A stretch of DNA of 64,000 nucleotides from an uncultured Acidobacteriota bacterium. GTDB taxonomy: Bacteria > Acidobacteriota > Terriglobia > Terriglobales > Acidobacteriaceae. Below, in pieces: positions 16,070-39,855 of the stretch. Each line of letters opens with the position of its first letter. Position 1 is the stretch's first letter. The stretch is from positions 1 through 64,000 of the forward strand of contig CAIQPK010000069.1 of NCBI GenBank assembly GCA_903873705.1. The letters are read 5' to 3'. The position numbers were made by a program, and so were the translations under genes. The notes below the pieces were generated by a model. That model searched no databases, was not told the DNA's origin, and was given only the letters and a program-made list of their open reading frames with translations.

Positions 16070-16131
16070 GGGTGCCCCATCCTCGCCGCGCTTTTGCGGC
16101 TAGGGTGGGCATCGCGCGAAGCGCGACCGCC
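16070..16131 (+). repeat. Family B dispersed palindrome
   Basis: The element reads GGGTGCCCCATCCTCGCCGC, a short loop, GCGGCTAGGGTGGGCATCGC, then GCGAAGCGCGACCGC. The two halves pair as a hairpin. Other copies are at 16902, 23570, 37201, 59592, 62621 and, within priA, 58741. Confidence 0.8.
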
Positions 16132-16756: not shown

Positions 16757-16790
16757 GAGAAGCGAGCTGTTGTCGTCGCTTTTGTCCTTC

Positions 16791-16858
16791 GGAGGGAGCA
16801 GGGGCCTTCAGGCCCCTGAATCCGTCCCCAGAAAATGGGGCTTTAGCCCCGGGCTTTC
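16791..16858 (+). repeat. Family C dispersed palindrome (REP-like)
   Basis: Two hairpins in a row: one within GGGGCCTTCAGGCCCC and one within GGGGCTTTAGCCCCGGGC. The element begins GGAGGGAGCA. Its right half is nearly identical to the copy inside metG (38530-38600), and copies flank the transposase relic at 18.7-19.4 kb. Confidence 0.85.
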
Positions 16859-16901
16859 TTTCGAGGCAGTACGACGTACGCGCAGGCAGAAATGTAGACG
16901 C

Positions 16902-18726: not shown

Positions 18727-18747
18727 TTCCTAGCTTTTCGCTTTTCC

Positions 18748-18817
18748 GGAGGGAGCAGCGGCCTTCAGGCCCCTGAAATTAAACCCTTATTGAGCAGGGG
18801 CTTTAGCCCCGGGCATT
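18748..18817 (+). repeat. Family C palindrome, left flank of transposase relic
   Basis: The copy begins GGAGGGAGCAG and has the CTTCAGGCCCCTGAA and GGGGCTTTAGCCCCGGGC parts. It overlaps the 3' end of the transposase reading frame: the extended frame ends at a TAA formed by the TTA in this repeat. Confidence 0.85.
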
Positions 18818-19318
18818 CGCTCGCAAGTGCAATGGAGCCGGATCAACGCACTCCATCAAAATTGCCGAAGAATAAGGAAAGTCCTCCACTCGCGAAACCA
18901 TGTTCTTACGAACCGGATTCAGTTCGATTTACCGCTGACACGCCGAGAACTTTTCCGCGTCTAGAATCTGACCCTCGTTGAAGCTTCTCTCCCAAACATC
19001 CATCTTGATCTTCAACAGAAACGAAAAGCCACCCTTGATAAATTGAACGGCCTTTTCTAAAGACACATCAGGCGCTGGCGTTAAAAGCAGATGAACATGA
19101 TCCGGCATCACCACGAAAGCATGGATTTGCACGCGGCATTTCCCGCGTTGTGTCTCGAGGACGCTGAGGAAGAGCAGCGCATGTGCTTCCACCTGAAAGA
19201 TGCGGCGACGCTGCGCAGTTACCGCAACAACGTGATAGGTCCGGAGTTCTTGCGGAGCCTTGTGCATCTGGGCAGAATAAGCCATACAAACCGGGACTGA
19301 AGCCCCATTTTTATCCAA
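18803..19318 (-). pseudogene. REP-associated tyrosine transposase (IS200-like Y1 family), interrupted by stop
   Basis: The reading frame encodes a RAYT-type single-strand transposase of about 171 codons (start at 19318 or the ATG at 19285). The HUH metal-binding motif is visible in VVMPDHVHLLLTP. The frame is interrupted by TAA at 18929-18931; beyond it the same frame continues IELNPVRKNMVSRVEDFPYS, the usual C-terminal block. By alignment to the YIxxNPVR motif, the stop replaces the tyrosine that in characterised relatives is the catalytic nucleophile. Inverted family C palindromes flank the gene (18748 and 19292), the typical RAYT/REP arrangement. The protein as encoded should be inactive. 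The ATG/TAA pair gives a 129-residue product if translated. Confidence 0.85.
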
Positions 19319-19355
19319 CCTTATTCAGGGGCCTGAAGGCCCCTGCTCCCTCCGA
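19292..19355 (-). repeat. Family C palindrome, right flank of transposase relic (inverted)
   Basis: The element is in opposite orientation to the copy at 18748: it reads CTGAAGCCCC, a spacer, then CAGGGGCCTGAAGGCCCCTG and CTCCCTCC. The pair forms an inverted frame around the transposase relic. Confidence 0.85.
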
Positions 19356-19380
19356 AAGACTCCCCCAAAAAGCCTCTCCC

Positions 19381-25094: not shown

Positions 25095-28000
25095 ATGGCC
25101 ATCACCCACATCACGGTCCGCGGCGCCCGCCAGCACAACCTGCGCAACGTCTCCGTCTCCATCCCGCGCAACACGCTCACGGTCGTAACCGGCCTCTCCG
25201 GCTCCGGCAAGAGCTCGCTCGCCTTCGACACCATCTACGCCGAAGGCCAGCGCCGCTACGTCGAAACCCTCTCCGCCTACGCCCGCCAGTTCCTCGACCA
25301 GATGGAGCGCCCCGACGTCGACGCCATCGACGGCCTCTCCCCCGCCATCTCCATCGAGCAGAAGACCACCAGCCGCAGCCCCCGCTCCACCGTCGGCACC
25401 ATCACCGAAATCTACGACTACCTCCGCCTCCTCTACGCCAGCGTCGGCCAGCCCCACTGCCCCAACTGCCACCGCCCCATCTCCCGCCAGTCAGCCGACC
25501 AGATCGTAGCCCAGATCGTCGACCGCAACGCCTCATCCGGCGAGCGAATCACCGTCCTCGCCCCCGTAGTCCGCGGTCGCAAAGGCGAGTTCCGCGAAGA
25601 AATCGAAGCCCTCGACAAGAAGGGCTACCGCCTCCGCATCGACGGCGAAATCACCGAAGTAGAAGAAGGCATGCGCCTCGACAAGAAGCGCAACCACACC
25701 CTCGAAGCCATAGTCGACCGCATCATCCTGAAGCCGCTTCAGGGTCCAGCGTCCAGCGCCCAGGGCCCAGACAACGCGTCTTCTGGACCCTGGGCCCTGG
25801 ACCCTGGACCCTCGCCTCTCTACGACACCAAGCGCCTCCTCACCGCCATCACTACCGCCCTCCAGATCGCCAACGGCCTCGTCCTCGTCGGCCTGCAATC
25901 CCCCGGCGGCGCGTACGAAGAAACCCTCTTCAGCTCCTCGATGGCCTGCCCCGACTGCGGCATCAACGTGCCCAAGCTCGAACCGCGCAGCTTCAGCTTC
26001 AACTCCACCTACGGCGCCTGCCCCGGCTGCAACGGCCTCGGCAGCATCTACGATTTCGACCCCGCCAAGACCATCACCGACTGGTCCAAGCCCCTGCTCG
26101 ATGGCGCCATGGGCCCCGGCTCCGGCTCGCAATACCTCCTCCGCCTCATCAGGCTCGCCGCGGAAAAGTACAAGATCAACCTCAAGCAGCCCTTCGCCGA
26201 CCTCTCCAAGGAGCACCAGGACCTCCTCCTCTACGGCCCACCCAAGGGCGAAGCAGGACGCACCGGCTTTCACGGCATCTTCCGCTACCTCCGCGACAAC
26301 CTCGACGAAACCAAGTCCGAAGGCTACCGCGACTACATGATGCAGTACATGTCTGCCAGCGAGTGCCCCCGCTGCCAGGGCCGCCGCCTCCGCCCCGAGT
26401 CCCTCGCCGTCACCATCCCCCTCGCCGACGCCGCCCTCCATCCGCCCGTCAACAAGGAAGACGCCGACACCGAGCCGATGGAAGCCCCCAACGCCCGTCG
26501 CGACAGCTCCATCGCCGACTTCACCGCCCTCTCGCTCGAACGCGCCCTGCTCGGCGCCCGCTCCATGCGCTTCACCGGCCGCGAGCAGCTCATCGCCGAC
26601 CGCCTCCAGCGCGAAATCATCGAGCGCCTCGAATTCCTCAACGCCGTCGGCCTCGGCTACCTTTCCCTCGAGCGCTCCGCTGCCACGCTCTCCGGCGGCG
26701 AAGGCCAGCGCATCCGCCTCGCCACCCAGATCGGCTCCCGCCTGCGTGGGGTGCTCTACGTGCTCGACGAGCCCAGCATCGGCCTCCACCAGCGCGACAA
26801 TCAGCGCCTCATCTCCGCGCTTACGGACCTGCGAGATCTTGGCAATACGGTTCTGGTTGTAGAGCATGACGAAGACACCATGCGCCGCGCCGACTACCTC
26901 ATCGACCTCGGCCCAGGCGCCGGAAAGCACGGCGGCGAAATTATGGCCGAAGGCACACCCGCCGAGGTCATGGCCAACCCCGCCTCCGTCACCGGCCAGT
27001 ACCTCGCCGGAAAAATCGACGTCGTCACCCGCCCCACACCCAACAAGGCGCCGCGCCCGCTCACCGGCAACTGGCTCTCCATAGAAGACGCCAGTTCGCA
27101 CAACCTGCAGCACATCACAGCCCACATCCCCCTCAGCGTCATGACGGTCGTCACCGGCGTCAGCGGCTCCGGCAAGTCAACCCTCATCAATGACATCTTG
27201 TACCGTTCTTTAGCGAAAGAACTCTACGGCTCCCGCGAAGAACCCGGCCGCCACAAGGCCATCCACGGCGTCGATCAACTCGACAAAGTCATCCAGATCG
27301 ACCAGTCCGCCATTGGCCGCACACCCCGCTCCAACCCCGCCACCTACACCGGCGTCTTCACCGCCATCCGCGACCTCTTCGCCATGCTCCCCGAGTCGCG
27401 CGAGCGCGGCTACAAACCCGGCCGCTTCAGCTTCAACGTCCAGGGCGGACGCTGCGAAGCCTGCCAGGGCGAAGGCCAGCGCCGCATCGAAATGAACTTC
27501 CTGCCCGACGTCTACGTCCTTTGCGAAGTCTGCAACGGCCGCCGTTACAACCAGGAAACCCTCGCCGTAAAGTTCAACGGCTACTCCATCGCCGACATCC
27601 TCGATCTCCCCATCGAAGACGCCGTCCCCGTCCTCAAAGACATTCCCGCCGTCAACATCAAGCTCCAGACCCTCGTCGACGTCGGCCTCGGCTACATCCA
27701 TCTAGGCCAGTCCGCCACCACGCTCTCCGGAGGCGAAGCCCAGCGCATGAAGCTCGCCCGCGAGCTCTCCAAACGCCAGACCGGCCGCACCCTCTACCTC
27801 CTCGACGAGCCCACCACCGGCCTCCACTTCGACGACGTCCGCAAGCTCCTCGAAGTCCTCCATCGCCTCACCGACCTCGGCAACACGGTCGTCATCATCG
27901 AGCACAACCTCGACATCATCCGCAACGCCGACTACCTCATCGACATGGGTCCCGAAGGCGGCGAAGGCGGCGGCACCATCGTCGCGCAGGGCCCACCCGA

Positions 28001-35661: not shown

Positions 35662-35688
35662 GCCCTCCACCCAACGCTCAAGGGGTGC

Positions 35689-37350: not shown

Positions 37351-39855
37351 ATGCCAGACACCCCCAAAACCTTCTACCTCACCACCCCGATCTACTACGT
37401 CAACGCCCGCCCCCACATCGGCCACGCGTACACCACCATCGTCGCGGACGTCCTCGCACGCCGCCACCGCCTGCTCGGAGAAGACACCTTCTTCCTCACC
37501 GGCACCGACGAGCACGGCCAGAAAATCGAGCGCTCCGCCGCCGCCGCCGGCATCCCCCCGCAGCAGTTCGCCGACCAGGTCTCCAAGTCCTTTGAAGACC
37601 TCTGGCACCGCATGGGCATCACCCACGACCACTACATCCGCACCACCGACCCCCGCCACCAAAAGGGCGTCCAGAAGCTCTTCGCCACCCTCTACGAAAA
37701 AGGCTTCATCTACCTCGACAGCTACACCGGCGCCTACTGCGTCTCCGACGAAACCTTCGTCGACGTCACCGCCGGCGAACCCTGCCCCGACTGCGGCCGC
37801 ATCACCGAAAGCGTCACCGAAGAAAACTTCTTCTTCAAACTAAGCGCCTTCCAGCTCCCGCTCCTCAATCTCCTCGAATCCAACCAGCTCAAAATCGAAA
37901 ACGACGCCCGCCGCAACGAAGTCCTCAGCTTCCTCCGCGGCAACACCACAACCCCCTCCACCACCGTCATCTCGACCGAAGCGCAGCGCAGTGGAGAGAT
38001 CCCCGCATTGTCGCCCGCAGCGGCACCGACGCTCGCCCACACCGCCGCCGGAACCCCATACGTCCCCGGCGCCCTCAAAGACCTCTCTGTCTCAAGGTCG
38101 AGCTTCACCTGGGGCATCCCCGTCCCCGAGCCCGCCGCCTCACAAGCCAAACAAAAACACGTCATCTACGTCTGGCTCGACGCCCTCGCCAACTACATGA
38201 CCGCCATCGGCTACGGAAGCGACGCACCGGTAGACGAGGAACAGTTCAAGAAATTCTGGCCCGCCGACCTCCACCTCGTCGGCAAAGAAATCATCCGCTT
38301 CCACTGCGTCTACTGGCCCGCATTCCTGCTCGCCGCCGAGTTGCCGCTGCCGAAAGCCATCACCGCGCACGGCTGGCTGCTCTTCGACAACAGCAAAATG
38401 TCGAAGTCCAAGGGAAACATCGTCCGCACCGAAACCATCCTCGACGCCTTCGGCACCCTCTGTCCCCCAACCTTCGATGCAGCGAGCCTTACCGGAGAGA
38501 CCCTCACCGCACAAGGAGCGAGCCTTACCGGAGGGGGCAGTGGGCTTCAGCCCACTGAAAAAGCCCCCCCAGAAAAAGGGGCTTTAGCCCCGGGCTTTCG
38601 TGAACCCACCAAAGCCGAGCGCGACCTCTTCGCCTCCGACGTTCTCCGCTACTTCCTCCTCCGCGAAATCCCGTTCGGCCAGGACGGCAGCTTCAGCTTC
38701 GACGCACTAATCACCCGCTATAACGCCGACCTAGCCAACGGCTACGGCAACCTCGTAAGCCGCACGCTAAGCATGATCCGGAAGTATTGCGATGGCCTCA
38801 TCCCCGGACCTGTTGTGAAGTTGCCGGGCAATCTCTTTTGGGAGCTTGGCAAGAGCGACACGCAACGCACCCCGCTCGAACAATCCCTTGCTGTCACAGT
38901 CGCTCTATCAATTACCGCAGCGGCCAGCCTGGACCGCCTCGACTTCGCGTTGTCCCTCGGTCTATGCCAGGACATCACCGCTTCCGTTGATCAAATGCTG
39001 ACTTCAACTGCTCCGTGGAAGATTGATCAATCCACGGAGGACGGCAAAGCGAAAATAGCCGAGACCCTCTACGCGGCGGCTGAATCGATCCGTTACATCA
39101 CGGCCCTTCTGTACCCGATCCTTCCTGCCACCACCGCCAAAGTTTGGCTCCAACTCGGCCTCGGAGACATCGAACAAGCCGCCAAGAACGGCAACCTAAA
39201 AGACCTGCATTGGGGCGGCCTCAAACCCGGCACCAAGCTCGGCCCACTAGCCCCCATCTTCCCCCGCGCCGACAAAGGACTCGCACAAATCATGAGCGAC
39301 ATGGAAAACCCCACACCCTCCGCACCCGAGCCCACCGACAGCACCCACCCCGCCGCCCCACCGCGCTCCGGCGCCTCAGACGCGGAAGCCACCCTCTCCG
39401 TAGCCGGCAGCACCGCCACCACCACCCGCACCGGCCCCACACCCTCGCACACCGAAGCCCAGCCCAGCGGCATCTTCGCCAACCAACCCGCAGCGCCAGC
39501 CGAACCCACCCCAGCCGACACCTCGCCCACCATCGCCATCGACGACTTCATCAAGATCGACCTCCGCGTAGCCGAAATCAAAATCGCCGAGCGCATTCCC
39601 AAAGCCGACAAGCTCCTCCGCCTCGAAGTCGACCTAGGCGCCCTCGGCACGCGCCAGATCCTCTCCGGCATCGCCGAGTGGTACGCGCCCGAAGACCTGA
39701 TCGGCCGCCGCATCATCGTCATCGCCAACCTCGCGCCCCGCAAAATGCGCGGCCTCGAGTCGCACGGCATGCTGCTCGCCGCCAGCGAAGAAGGCGGCAA
39801 GCCCTTCCTCGCCACCGTCCCCGAAGGCGTCCCCACCGGAACCCGCCTCAAATAG
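37351..39855 (+). CDS. metG: Methionine-tRNA ligase with C-terminal tRNA-binding domain and two repeat-derived insertions
   Basis: MetG charges initiator and elongator tRNA-Met. The 834-residue protein has the class I HIGH motif (PHIGHAYTT), KMSKSKGN near residue 350, a zinc-binding knuckle with CPDCGR and the C-terminal tRNA-binding fold (IDDFIKIDLRVAEIKIAERI, near 730 onward) joined by a Pro/Ala/Thr-rich linker. It is longer than usual because of two insertions. One of about 40 residues lies after EVLSFLRG and contains a family D repeat. The other, about 45 residues after ETILDAFG, contains a 17-bp direct repeat and a complete family C palindrome. The core continues in frame (ALKDLSVSRSSF and DVLRYFLLREIPFG). 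TAAACT 16 bases upstream of the ATG may be the promoter -10. Confidence 0.95.
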   Translation: MPDTPKTFYLTTPIYYVNARPHIGHAYTTIVADVLARRHRLLGEDTFFLTGTDEHGQKIERSAAAAGIPPQQFADQVSKSFEDLWHRMGITHDHYIRTTDPRHQKGVQKLFATLYEKGFIYLDSYTGAYCVSDETFVDVTAGEPCPDCGRITESVTEENFFFKLSAFQLPLLNLLESNQLKIENDARRNEVLSFLRGNTTTPSTTVISTEAQRSGEIPALSPAAAPTLAHTAAGTPYVPGALKDLSVSRSSFTWGIPVPEPAASQAKQKHVIYVWLDALANYMTAIGYGSDAPVDEEQFKKFWPADLHLVGKEIIRFHCVYWPAFLLAAELPLPKAITAHGWLLFDNSKMSKSKGNIVRTETILDAFGTLCPPTFDAASLTGETLTAQGASLTGGGSGLQPTEKAPPEKGALAPGFREPTKAERDLFASDVLRYFLLREIPFGQDGSFSFDALITRYNADLANGYGNLVSRTLSMIRKYCDGLIPGPVVKLPGNLFWELGKSDTQRTPLEQSLAVTVALSITAAASLDRLDFALSLGLCQDITASVDQMLTSTAPWKIDQSTEDGKAKIAETLYAAAESIRYITALLYPILPATTAKVWLQLGLGDIEQAAKNGNLKDLHWGGLKPGTKLGPLAPIFPRADKGLAQIMSDMENPTPSAPEPTDSTHPAAPPRSGASDAEATLSVAGSTATTTRTGPTPSHTEAQPSGIFANQPAAPAEPTPADTSPTIAIDDFIKIDLRVAEIKIAERIPKADKLLRLEVDLGALGTRQILSGIAEWYAPEDLIGRRIIVIANLAPRKMRGLESHGMLLAASEEGGKPFLATVPEGVPTGTRLK
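37966..38009 (+). repeat. Family D repeat inside metG
   Basis: GTCATCTCGACCGAAGC...GCGCAGTGGAGAGATCCCCG CATT. It shares 41 of its 44 bases, in two exact blocks of 17 and 24, with the intergenic copy at 40708. It encodes about residues 206-220 (STEAQRSGEIP). Confidence 0.88.
38481..38533 (+). repeat. Direct repeat inside metG insertion
   Basis: AGCGAGCCTTACCGGAG occurs at 38481-38497 and again at 38517-38533, a 36-base (12-codon) period. It directly precedes the family C element and encodes ASLTGE / ASLTGG. Confidence 0.85.
38530..38600 (+). repeat. Family C palindrome inside metG
   Basis: GGAGGGGGCAGTGGGCTTCA, GCCCACTGAA, then AGAAAAAGGGGCTTTAGCCC CGGGCTTTCG. The right half is nearly identical to the intergenic copy at 16791. 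It encodes about residues 394-417 (GLQPTEKAPPEKGALAPGF) in frame. Confidence 0.9.

Follow-up and report, generated by a model that had tools for sequence, protein, structure and literature searches.

A REPIN-like hairpin repeat in frame in the methionyl-tRNA synthetase gene of an uncultured Terriglobia bacterium, and repeats at the same loop in related species

Introduction

REPs lying in frame in tRNA synthetase genes have been described before: Di Nocera et al. (2013; PMC3733652) found REPs and REP dimers inside genes, among them tRNA synthetase genes of three species, and different REPs occupy about the same recB site in two Xanthomonas species, most copies being intergenic. The palindromic elements of Rickettsia, about 150 bp long, are a further described case, with 44 integrations in genes of R. 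conorii according to a review (PMC10969869). A REPIN combines two REPs, one inverted relative to the other, around a spacer (Bertels and Rainey, 2011; PMC3116915), and a pair of inverted REPs on either side of the gene is a published signature of RAYTs (Nunvar et al., 2010; PMC2817692). Acidobacteria are named among the hosts of class 3 RAYTs (PMC6006769). Within that phylum, the short repeats of Solibacter have been counted in a paper whose available text mentions no REP inserts (PMC3174227), and hairpin counts are tabulated for Granulicella aggregans in a paper in whose main text the word 'intragenic' does not occur (PMC12306157). No title or opening abstract in the open-licence literature dealt with the repeat described here or with repeat inserts of metG in Acidobacteriota.

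We analysed a stretch of 64,000 nucleotides (the window) from the draft genome of an uncultured member of the Terriglobia. A first-pass annotation of the window had proposed that a dispersed, REP-like palindrome lies in frame in metG, right after the KMSKS region, and that the essential enzyme tolerates the encoded peptide. The dispersed in-frame repeat could be confirmed and the interpretation is supported. A second repeat in the same gene and the recurrence of the site in other species go beyond that annotation.

Results

The metG gene and its hairpin element

The assembly comprises 4.18 Mb in 94 contigs, is rated 100% complete and belongs to a genus near the Edaphobacter and Granulicella records. 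The features of metG considered here are the following.

37351..39855, plus strand: metG, methionyl-tRNA synthetase with a C-terminal tRNA-binding domain, 834 aa
37966..38009, plus strand: second dispersed repeat, unrelated to the first, in frame, residues 206-220, VISTEAQRSGEIPA, found at 46 genomic places
38455..38625, plus strand: loop segment, residues 369-425, missing from the solved chains 9shc_A and 7wpi_A (phmmer)
38482-38497 and 38518-38533, plus strand: direct repeat GCGAGCCTTACCGGAG, 16 bp, spacing 36 bp, at the 5' edge of the element
38521..38605, plus strand: REPIN-like two-hairpin element, sense, in frame, residues 391-419 (covariance model, 85.2 bits; BLAST)
38538..38557, plus strand: hairpin 1, CAGTGGGCTTCAGCCCACTG, coding for SGLQPT (sequence; RNA and DNA fold)
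38578..38591, plus strand: hairpin 2, GGGGCTTTAGCCCC, coding for GALAP (sequence; RNA fold)

The protein is 65-72% identical to its orthologues in the genus. The frame is open through the element and both core motifs are present, HIGH at residues 22-25 and KMSKS at 349-353, with H22, G24, K349, M350 and S351 invariant across 88 MetG sequences. A second intact metG, which the first-pass annotation had named as the alternative to a functional gene, was not found when the genome's own contigs were searched with the PF09334 profile in this 100%-complete draft. The profile matched three pieces of metG and gave six weaker matches (C21, C42, C50 and C90; best 77 bits), of the kind that other class I synthetases would be expected to give.

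The element scored 85.2 bits (E about 1e-20), second best among at least 91 covariance-model matches in its own genome; the model was made from 12 copies with that of metG among them, so this score is partly a matter of construction. The BLAST result is not. Matches of the metG element within the genome were found in C71 (85%), C15 (83%), the window at 16790-16858 (83%) and 18740-18819 (77%), C7 (77%) and C30 (76%), along with four short ones. The two window copies are those of which the segment had been called a near-complete relative, and its membership in the dispersed repeat is borne out. A chance palindrome is ruled out by the copies found throughout the genome with both methods.

RNA folding of 38500-38620 gave a structure stabler than all 200 dinucleotide shuffles (z -3.4), and the DNA fold was stabler than all but three of 200. 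Compared with the other copies, that in metG has GGGG before hairpin 1, where GGAG is usual in its subtype, and a degenerate 3' end. From these features it looks decayed and is probably no longer mobile.

In phmmer alignments with 9shc_A and 7wpi_A, the two solved MetRS chains that match best, similarity runs to residue 368 and resumes at 427 and 426, respectively. Of the 57 extra residues (369-425), the element accounts for about 29; the remainder is a genus-specific loop. Residues 194-237, around the second repeat, stand opposite two chain residues in these alignments. An AlphaFold model computed from 88 sequences has a mean pLDDT of 86.6 and a confident core, and supersedes an earlier model from 20 sequences (pLDDT 62). 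Residues 381-410 lie at 49-59 and residues 201-220 at about 55. Ranked by E-value, the top Foldseek match is the MetRS of M. smegmatis (2x1l_A, TMt 0.90). The MetRS fold is thus predicted to be intact with a repeat-coded tip of low confidence, and, taken with the known fold, the AlphaFold and Foldseek results suggest that the loop lies on the enzyme surface.

Anatomy of the repeat family

Copies in the window, apart from that in metG, are listed below with their covariance-model scores.

16782..16864, plus strand: element copy with no coding frame through it in the coding test, 85.3 bits
18739..18824, plus strand: element copy on one side of the RAYT gene, 78.9 bits
19279..19362, minus strand: element copy, inverted, on the other side of the RAYT gene, 75.1 bits
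40847..40932, plus strand: GGTACCCC-tagged subtype copy downstream of metG with no coding frame (coding test), 52.5 bits

The family comprises at least 91 matches in the 4.18-Mb genome (E up to 0.1), with 150 of 1142 candidates scored. As in REPs and REPINs, these are short, GC-rich, imperfect palindromes and mostly extragenic. The element consists of two hairpins about 20-30 bases apart, the second mostly GGGGCTTTAGCCCC or GGGCTTCAGCCCC. The bases preceding hairpin 1 were read by script in the 91 own copies as GTAC (GGTACCCC) in 73, GGAG-CAG in seven, GTAG-CAG in three, GGGG-CAG in one (the metG copy), GTCG-CAG in one and other in six; one of the last group, C41:70150, shows GTAG by eye. With GTAG at the hairpin foot in three of 91 own copies (script), the family stands outside the GTAG-tagged REP superfamily.

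The two halves of the element were compared in 76 of the 91 copies. Their inverted arrangement is clear in the GGTACCCC subtype, where the 5' half against the reverse complement of the 3' half scored 16.4 (shuffled, 10.8; 64 copies). It is weak as a group property in the other copies, that of metG included (12.9; shuffled, 11.4; 12 copies); a single copy outside the subtype, C15:4638, shows the inverted order plainly. By this plan, the family looks like a REPIN.

Further repeats were seen in the window. Two more kinds of hairpin repeat start with GGGTGCCCCAT, one at 16070, 37201 and 58741 and the other at 35683, 39938 and 56691, some of them adjoining metG. Repeats resembling CCCTGGACCCTGGGCCCT are located at 25741-25819 and at about 37290, and a similar stretch lies in frame in the other MetG loop of a related genome (G006).

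Association with a RAYT-type transposase

18803..19318, minus strand: RAYT-like Y1 transposase gene with an in-frame stop at 18929-18931 (PF01797, E 1.2e-13 at 18998-19240)

This gene is located between inverted element copies (locus 18739-19362), 19 kb from metG. Past the stop codon the next open piece starts with IELNPVRK. Because the frame is interrupted, activity of this RAYT in the strain is doubtful. A second Y1_Tnp gene of the genome (C34) lies in a locus without covariance-model matches.

Y1_Tnp was found in 26 of the 28 genomes of the genus, with 84 matches altogether. We scanned 51 such loci, namely 31 and a further 20 picked after the adjacency had been noticed in G010 and G011. Inverted copies flank the gene on both sides at three of the 31 and eight of the 20, that is at 11 of 51 loci with the present one included. 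Five loci (L262, L267, L268, L279 and L288) have copies on one side only or in one orientation, and at 35 of the 51 no element copies were found (E 0.01).

A second dispersed repeat in metG

The core of the second repeat, GTCATCTCGACCGAAGCGCAGCGCAGTGGAGAGATCCCCGCATT, occurs at 46 places of the genome with up to two mismatches; a search with the reversed pattern as a control gave no match. According to the coding test it is in frame in coding frames at 11 of the 46 places, two of them in one gene. In a Pfam scan of the ten frames besides metG, two of which are overlapping stretches of one gene, six had a match: amine oxidase, PurL (FGAR-AT domain), Lhr-type helicase and PMT-type glycosyltransferases. 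The amine oxidase match spans the insert. No Pfam match was obtained for the other four, one of which is just 144 aa long with the repeat near its end. PurL, another core enzyme, thus seems to be affected by the second repeat, judging from the reading frame. The PurL-type (FGAR-AT) open piece, L344:2-1762 on the minus strand, carries the repeat in frame at about residue 179.

In-frame copies and their orientation

The coding test used codon usage trained on eight hand-chosen genes of the window, metG among them. Three of the 91 REP-family copies are genic and in frame, out-of-frame genic copies being counted among the remaining 88. They lie in metG, in a PMT_2-type glycosyltransferase and in an MsbA-like ABC exporter, and each of the latter two proteins contains other repeats as well. 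In the exporter (L221:2727-4913, minus strand), two different hairpin repeats are adjacent in the linker before the ATPase domain. The low number of in-frame copies, three of 91, fits selection against most genic insertions.

All in-frame copies of the genome are in sense orientation, three of three in the REP family and 11 of 11 in the second family. For the GGTACCCC type the mean number of open frames is 1.42 in sense and 0.5 in antisense, so that the sense orientation of the exporter's GGTACCCC copy is partly expected from the fewer open antisense frames. Own copies without GGTAC have means of 1.0 (sense) and 1.25 (antisense), and the insert type of G005, a relative described below, has 1.2 and 1.0, much the same in either orientation. 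In the second family three sense and two antisense frames are open, which for 11 sense copies of 11 gives 0.6^11, about 0.004, as a post hoc figure with the places taken as independent.

Recurrence of the loop site across the genus

The loop could be read in 24 of the 28 genomes of the genus; it is cut by contig ends in G007 and G019, and in G021 and G025 only other synthetases were matched, and weakly. Nine of the 24 have repeat inserts between DAFG and RDLF, namely the genome studied here (G000) and eight of the 23 relatives with a readable loop (G002, G005, G006, G011, G012, G013, G020 and G026). At least three repeat types are represented. The frame is open through all nine inserts, which is needed in an essential gene, and the insert sequence differs in each genome. 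In the metG of G026 (L078) the loop is 139 residues long and apparently holds several repeats of different families. The six genomes without a model match (E 0.01) have no insert, and nine of the other 18 have one (p 0.05).

The insert residues are missing from the repeat-free orthologues of the genus, ten of which have a loop resembling DEVYGKQFPxSTKxER and five a short LCP loop. It had been claimed that an ordinary MetG passes directly from DAFG to DVLRYFLL. This holds for more distant readable Terriglobia; it does not hold within the genus, where the 15 insert-free members have 16-19 residues at this place. In more distant readable bacteria the loop is mostly missing, and nearer sister groups have 15-27 residues of other sequence.

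On a tree of MetG (genus genomes, L081-L087 and L096), loops of the VYxKQFP and LCPP/LKPKP kinds are interleaved, perhaps through recombination between species. The idea that the empty loop is the ancestral state was dropped; since outgroups carry both loop kinds, gain and loss are indistinguishable here.

Discussion

Origin of the insert

In our view the segment is very probably a REPIN-like element of the RAYT-bracketing family, lying in frame in the MetRS loop that connects the KMSKS arm with the helix after it. RAYT-driven single-strand transposition would have placed it in metG, where it would be translated as a flexible surface loop, and it may persist because this loop tolerates changes of length and not because the peptide has a function. 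As to the number of events, many independent insertions compete with one ancestral insertion in an LCPP allele, inherited or exchanged and then overwritten via gene conversion or by insertion of repeat into repeat, a course of events that we take seriously and lean only slightly against. It agrees with the presence of all nine inserts in the LCPP-type allele and of none in the ten VYGKQFP alleles (Fisher p 0.002, ignoring kinship), and with the single orientation of the eight REP-type inserts, which is more uniform than random independent insertion would give (two-sided p 0.008). Right-hand flanks are also mostly alike (xPTKxxRDLF), and the G011 insert is slightly closer to the G000 insert (75.3%) than to the best of ten fetched G011 copies (74.1%), with one of which it has its first 23 bases, flank included, in common. 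The relation of inserts to their own genomes argues the other way: in G005, G006 and G012 the insert type occurs elsewhere in the host genome. The G006 insert belongs to a GGATTAGCAG subtype seen in two of six fetched G006 copies (of 70 matches) and in none of ten from G011 (of 145). That of G012 is another type, and a further copy in the G012 genome matches it at 90% across 77 bases. The G005 type has at least 40 matches in G005 and six weaker ones in G000, where it is rare; yet it is not confined to one species, with 42 matches in G012, 23 in G026, nine in G013 and six in G020. For the G000 insert, the C71 copy of the same genome is the closest (77.6%); the comparison of the G002 insert used copies from other genomes. 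In addition, the inserts differ in how far the element lies from LCPP, and the MetG tree, built with both loops left out and with several weakly supported branches, requires at least six changes for presence and at least nine for type.

Three other explanations are less probable. Domestication, in which the peptide or the RNA hairpin serves to adjust the activity or contacts of MetRS, the stability of its mRNA or its translation, would suit the fold stability beyond all 200 shuffles, the hairpins kept across the species' inserts despite differing stem letters, and the sense orientation of all own in-frame copies. We nevertheless consider it improbable, as recent copies of a hairpin repeat would have hairpins in any case, the insert sequence is different in each of nine genomes, 15 of the 24 genus genomes are insert-free, and the tip has low confidence in the AlphaFold model. 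Strong hairpins within an essential gene might also suggest that the segment is bypassed or removed from the mature protein, or that metG is non-functional and its task falls to another enzyme. This is very unlikely given that no other metG was found in a 100%-complete draft and that the frame is open in all nine genomes, which bypass or removal would not need. An assembly or binning error, conceivable in a draft of 94 contigs, has a negligible probability: the same insert type is found in metG of G011, a one-contig genome, and other types in further assemblies.

Comparison with known systems

The family resembles REPIN/RAYT systems in having two inverted REPs with a spacer, a RAYT gene flanked by inverted copies, and copies dispersed in one genome. 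It differs from the known ones in host phylum, tags and in-frame position in an essential gene. The proposed parallel with the Rickettsia palindromic elements stands for behaviour; the anatomy is that of a REPIN/RAYT-type system. In both cases palindromes of several families lie in frame in open reading frames of metabolic enzymes (PMC10969869, PMC3733652), and in metG and the other genes the host protein appears to be kept, as judged by frame and domains. Unlike the Rickettsia elements, the present family has 85-bp members with three of 91 in frame (11 of 46 in the second family). With the GTAG/CGTC-tagged REPs, as far as the available text of PMC3733652 describes them, it has the location within genes, tRNA synthetases among them, in common; the tags here are mostly GGTACCCC and GGAG, and the hosts Terriglobia. 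What is new, also in comparison with those REPs, is a family of REPIN/RAYT type in Terriglobia, most of whose copies lack the usual tag, the presence in a single essential synthetase of two repeats unrelated to each other, and an enzyme loop in which nine species of a genus carry repeats of several types.

Implications

It seems that mobile DNA keeps entering the gene of an essential enzyme and is tolerated there. A wider reading, which we offer tentatively and regard as rather unlikely, is that dispersed hairpin repeats of this genus are recurrent, sense-only coding cassettes: several unrelated families would repeatedly insert into those loops of essential enzymes that tolerate insertions, in MetG and, in the case of the second family, in PurL. 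Loop length and sequence of core proteins would be rewritten in one lineage after another, and either the mechanism of transposition or selection would dictate the orientation. Sense-only orientation, if true genus-wide, would be a clue to the mode of insertion or to the insertions that selection permits. The loop, occupied in nine species and empty in fifteen, provides a natural series for comparing neutral, costly and useful inserts. In-frame repeats in essential genes would be a case of mobile DNA supplying new protein sequence while the host survives.
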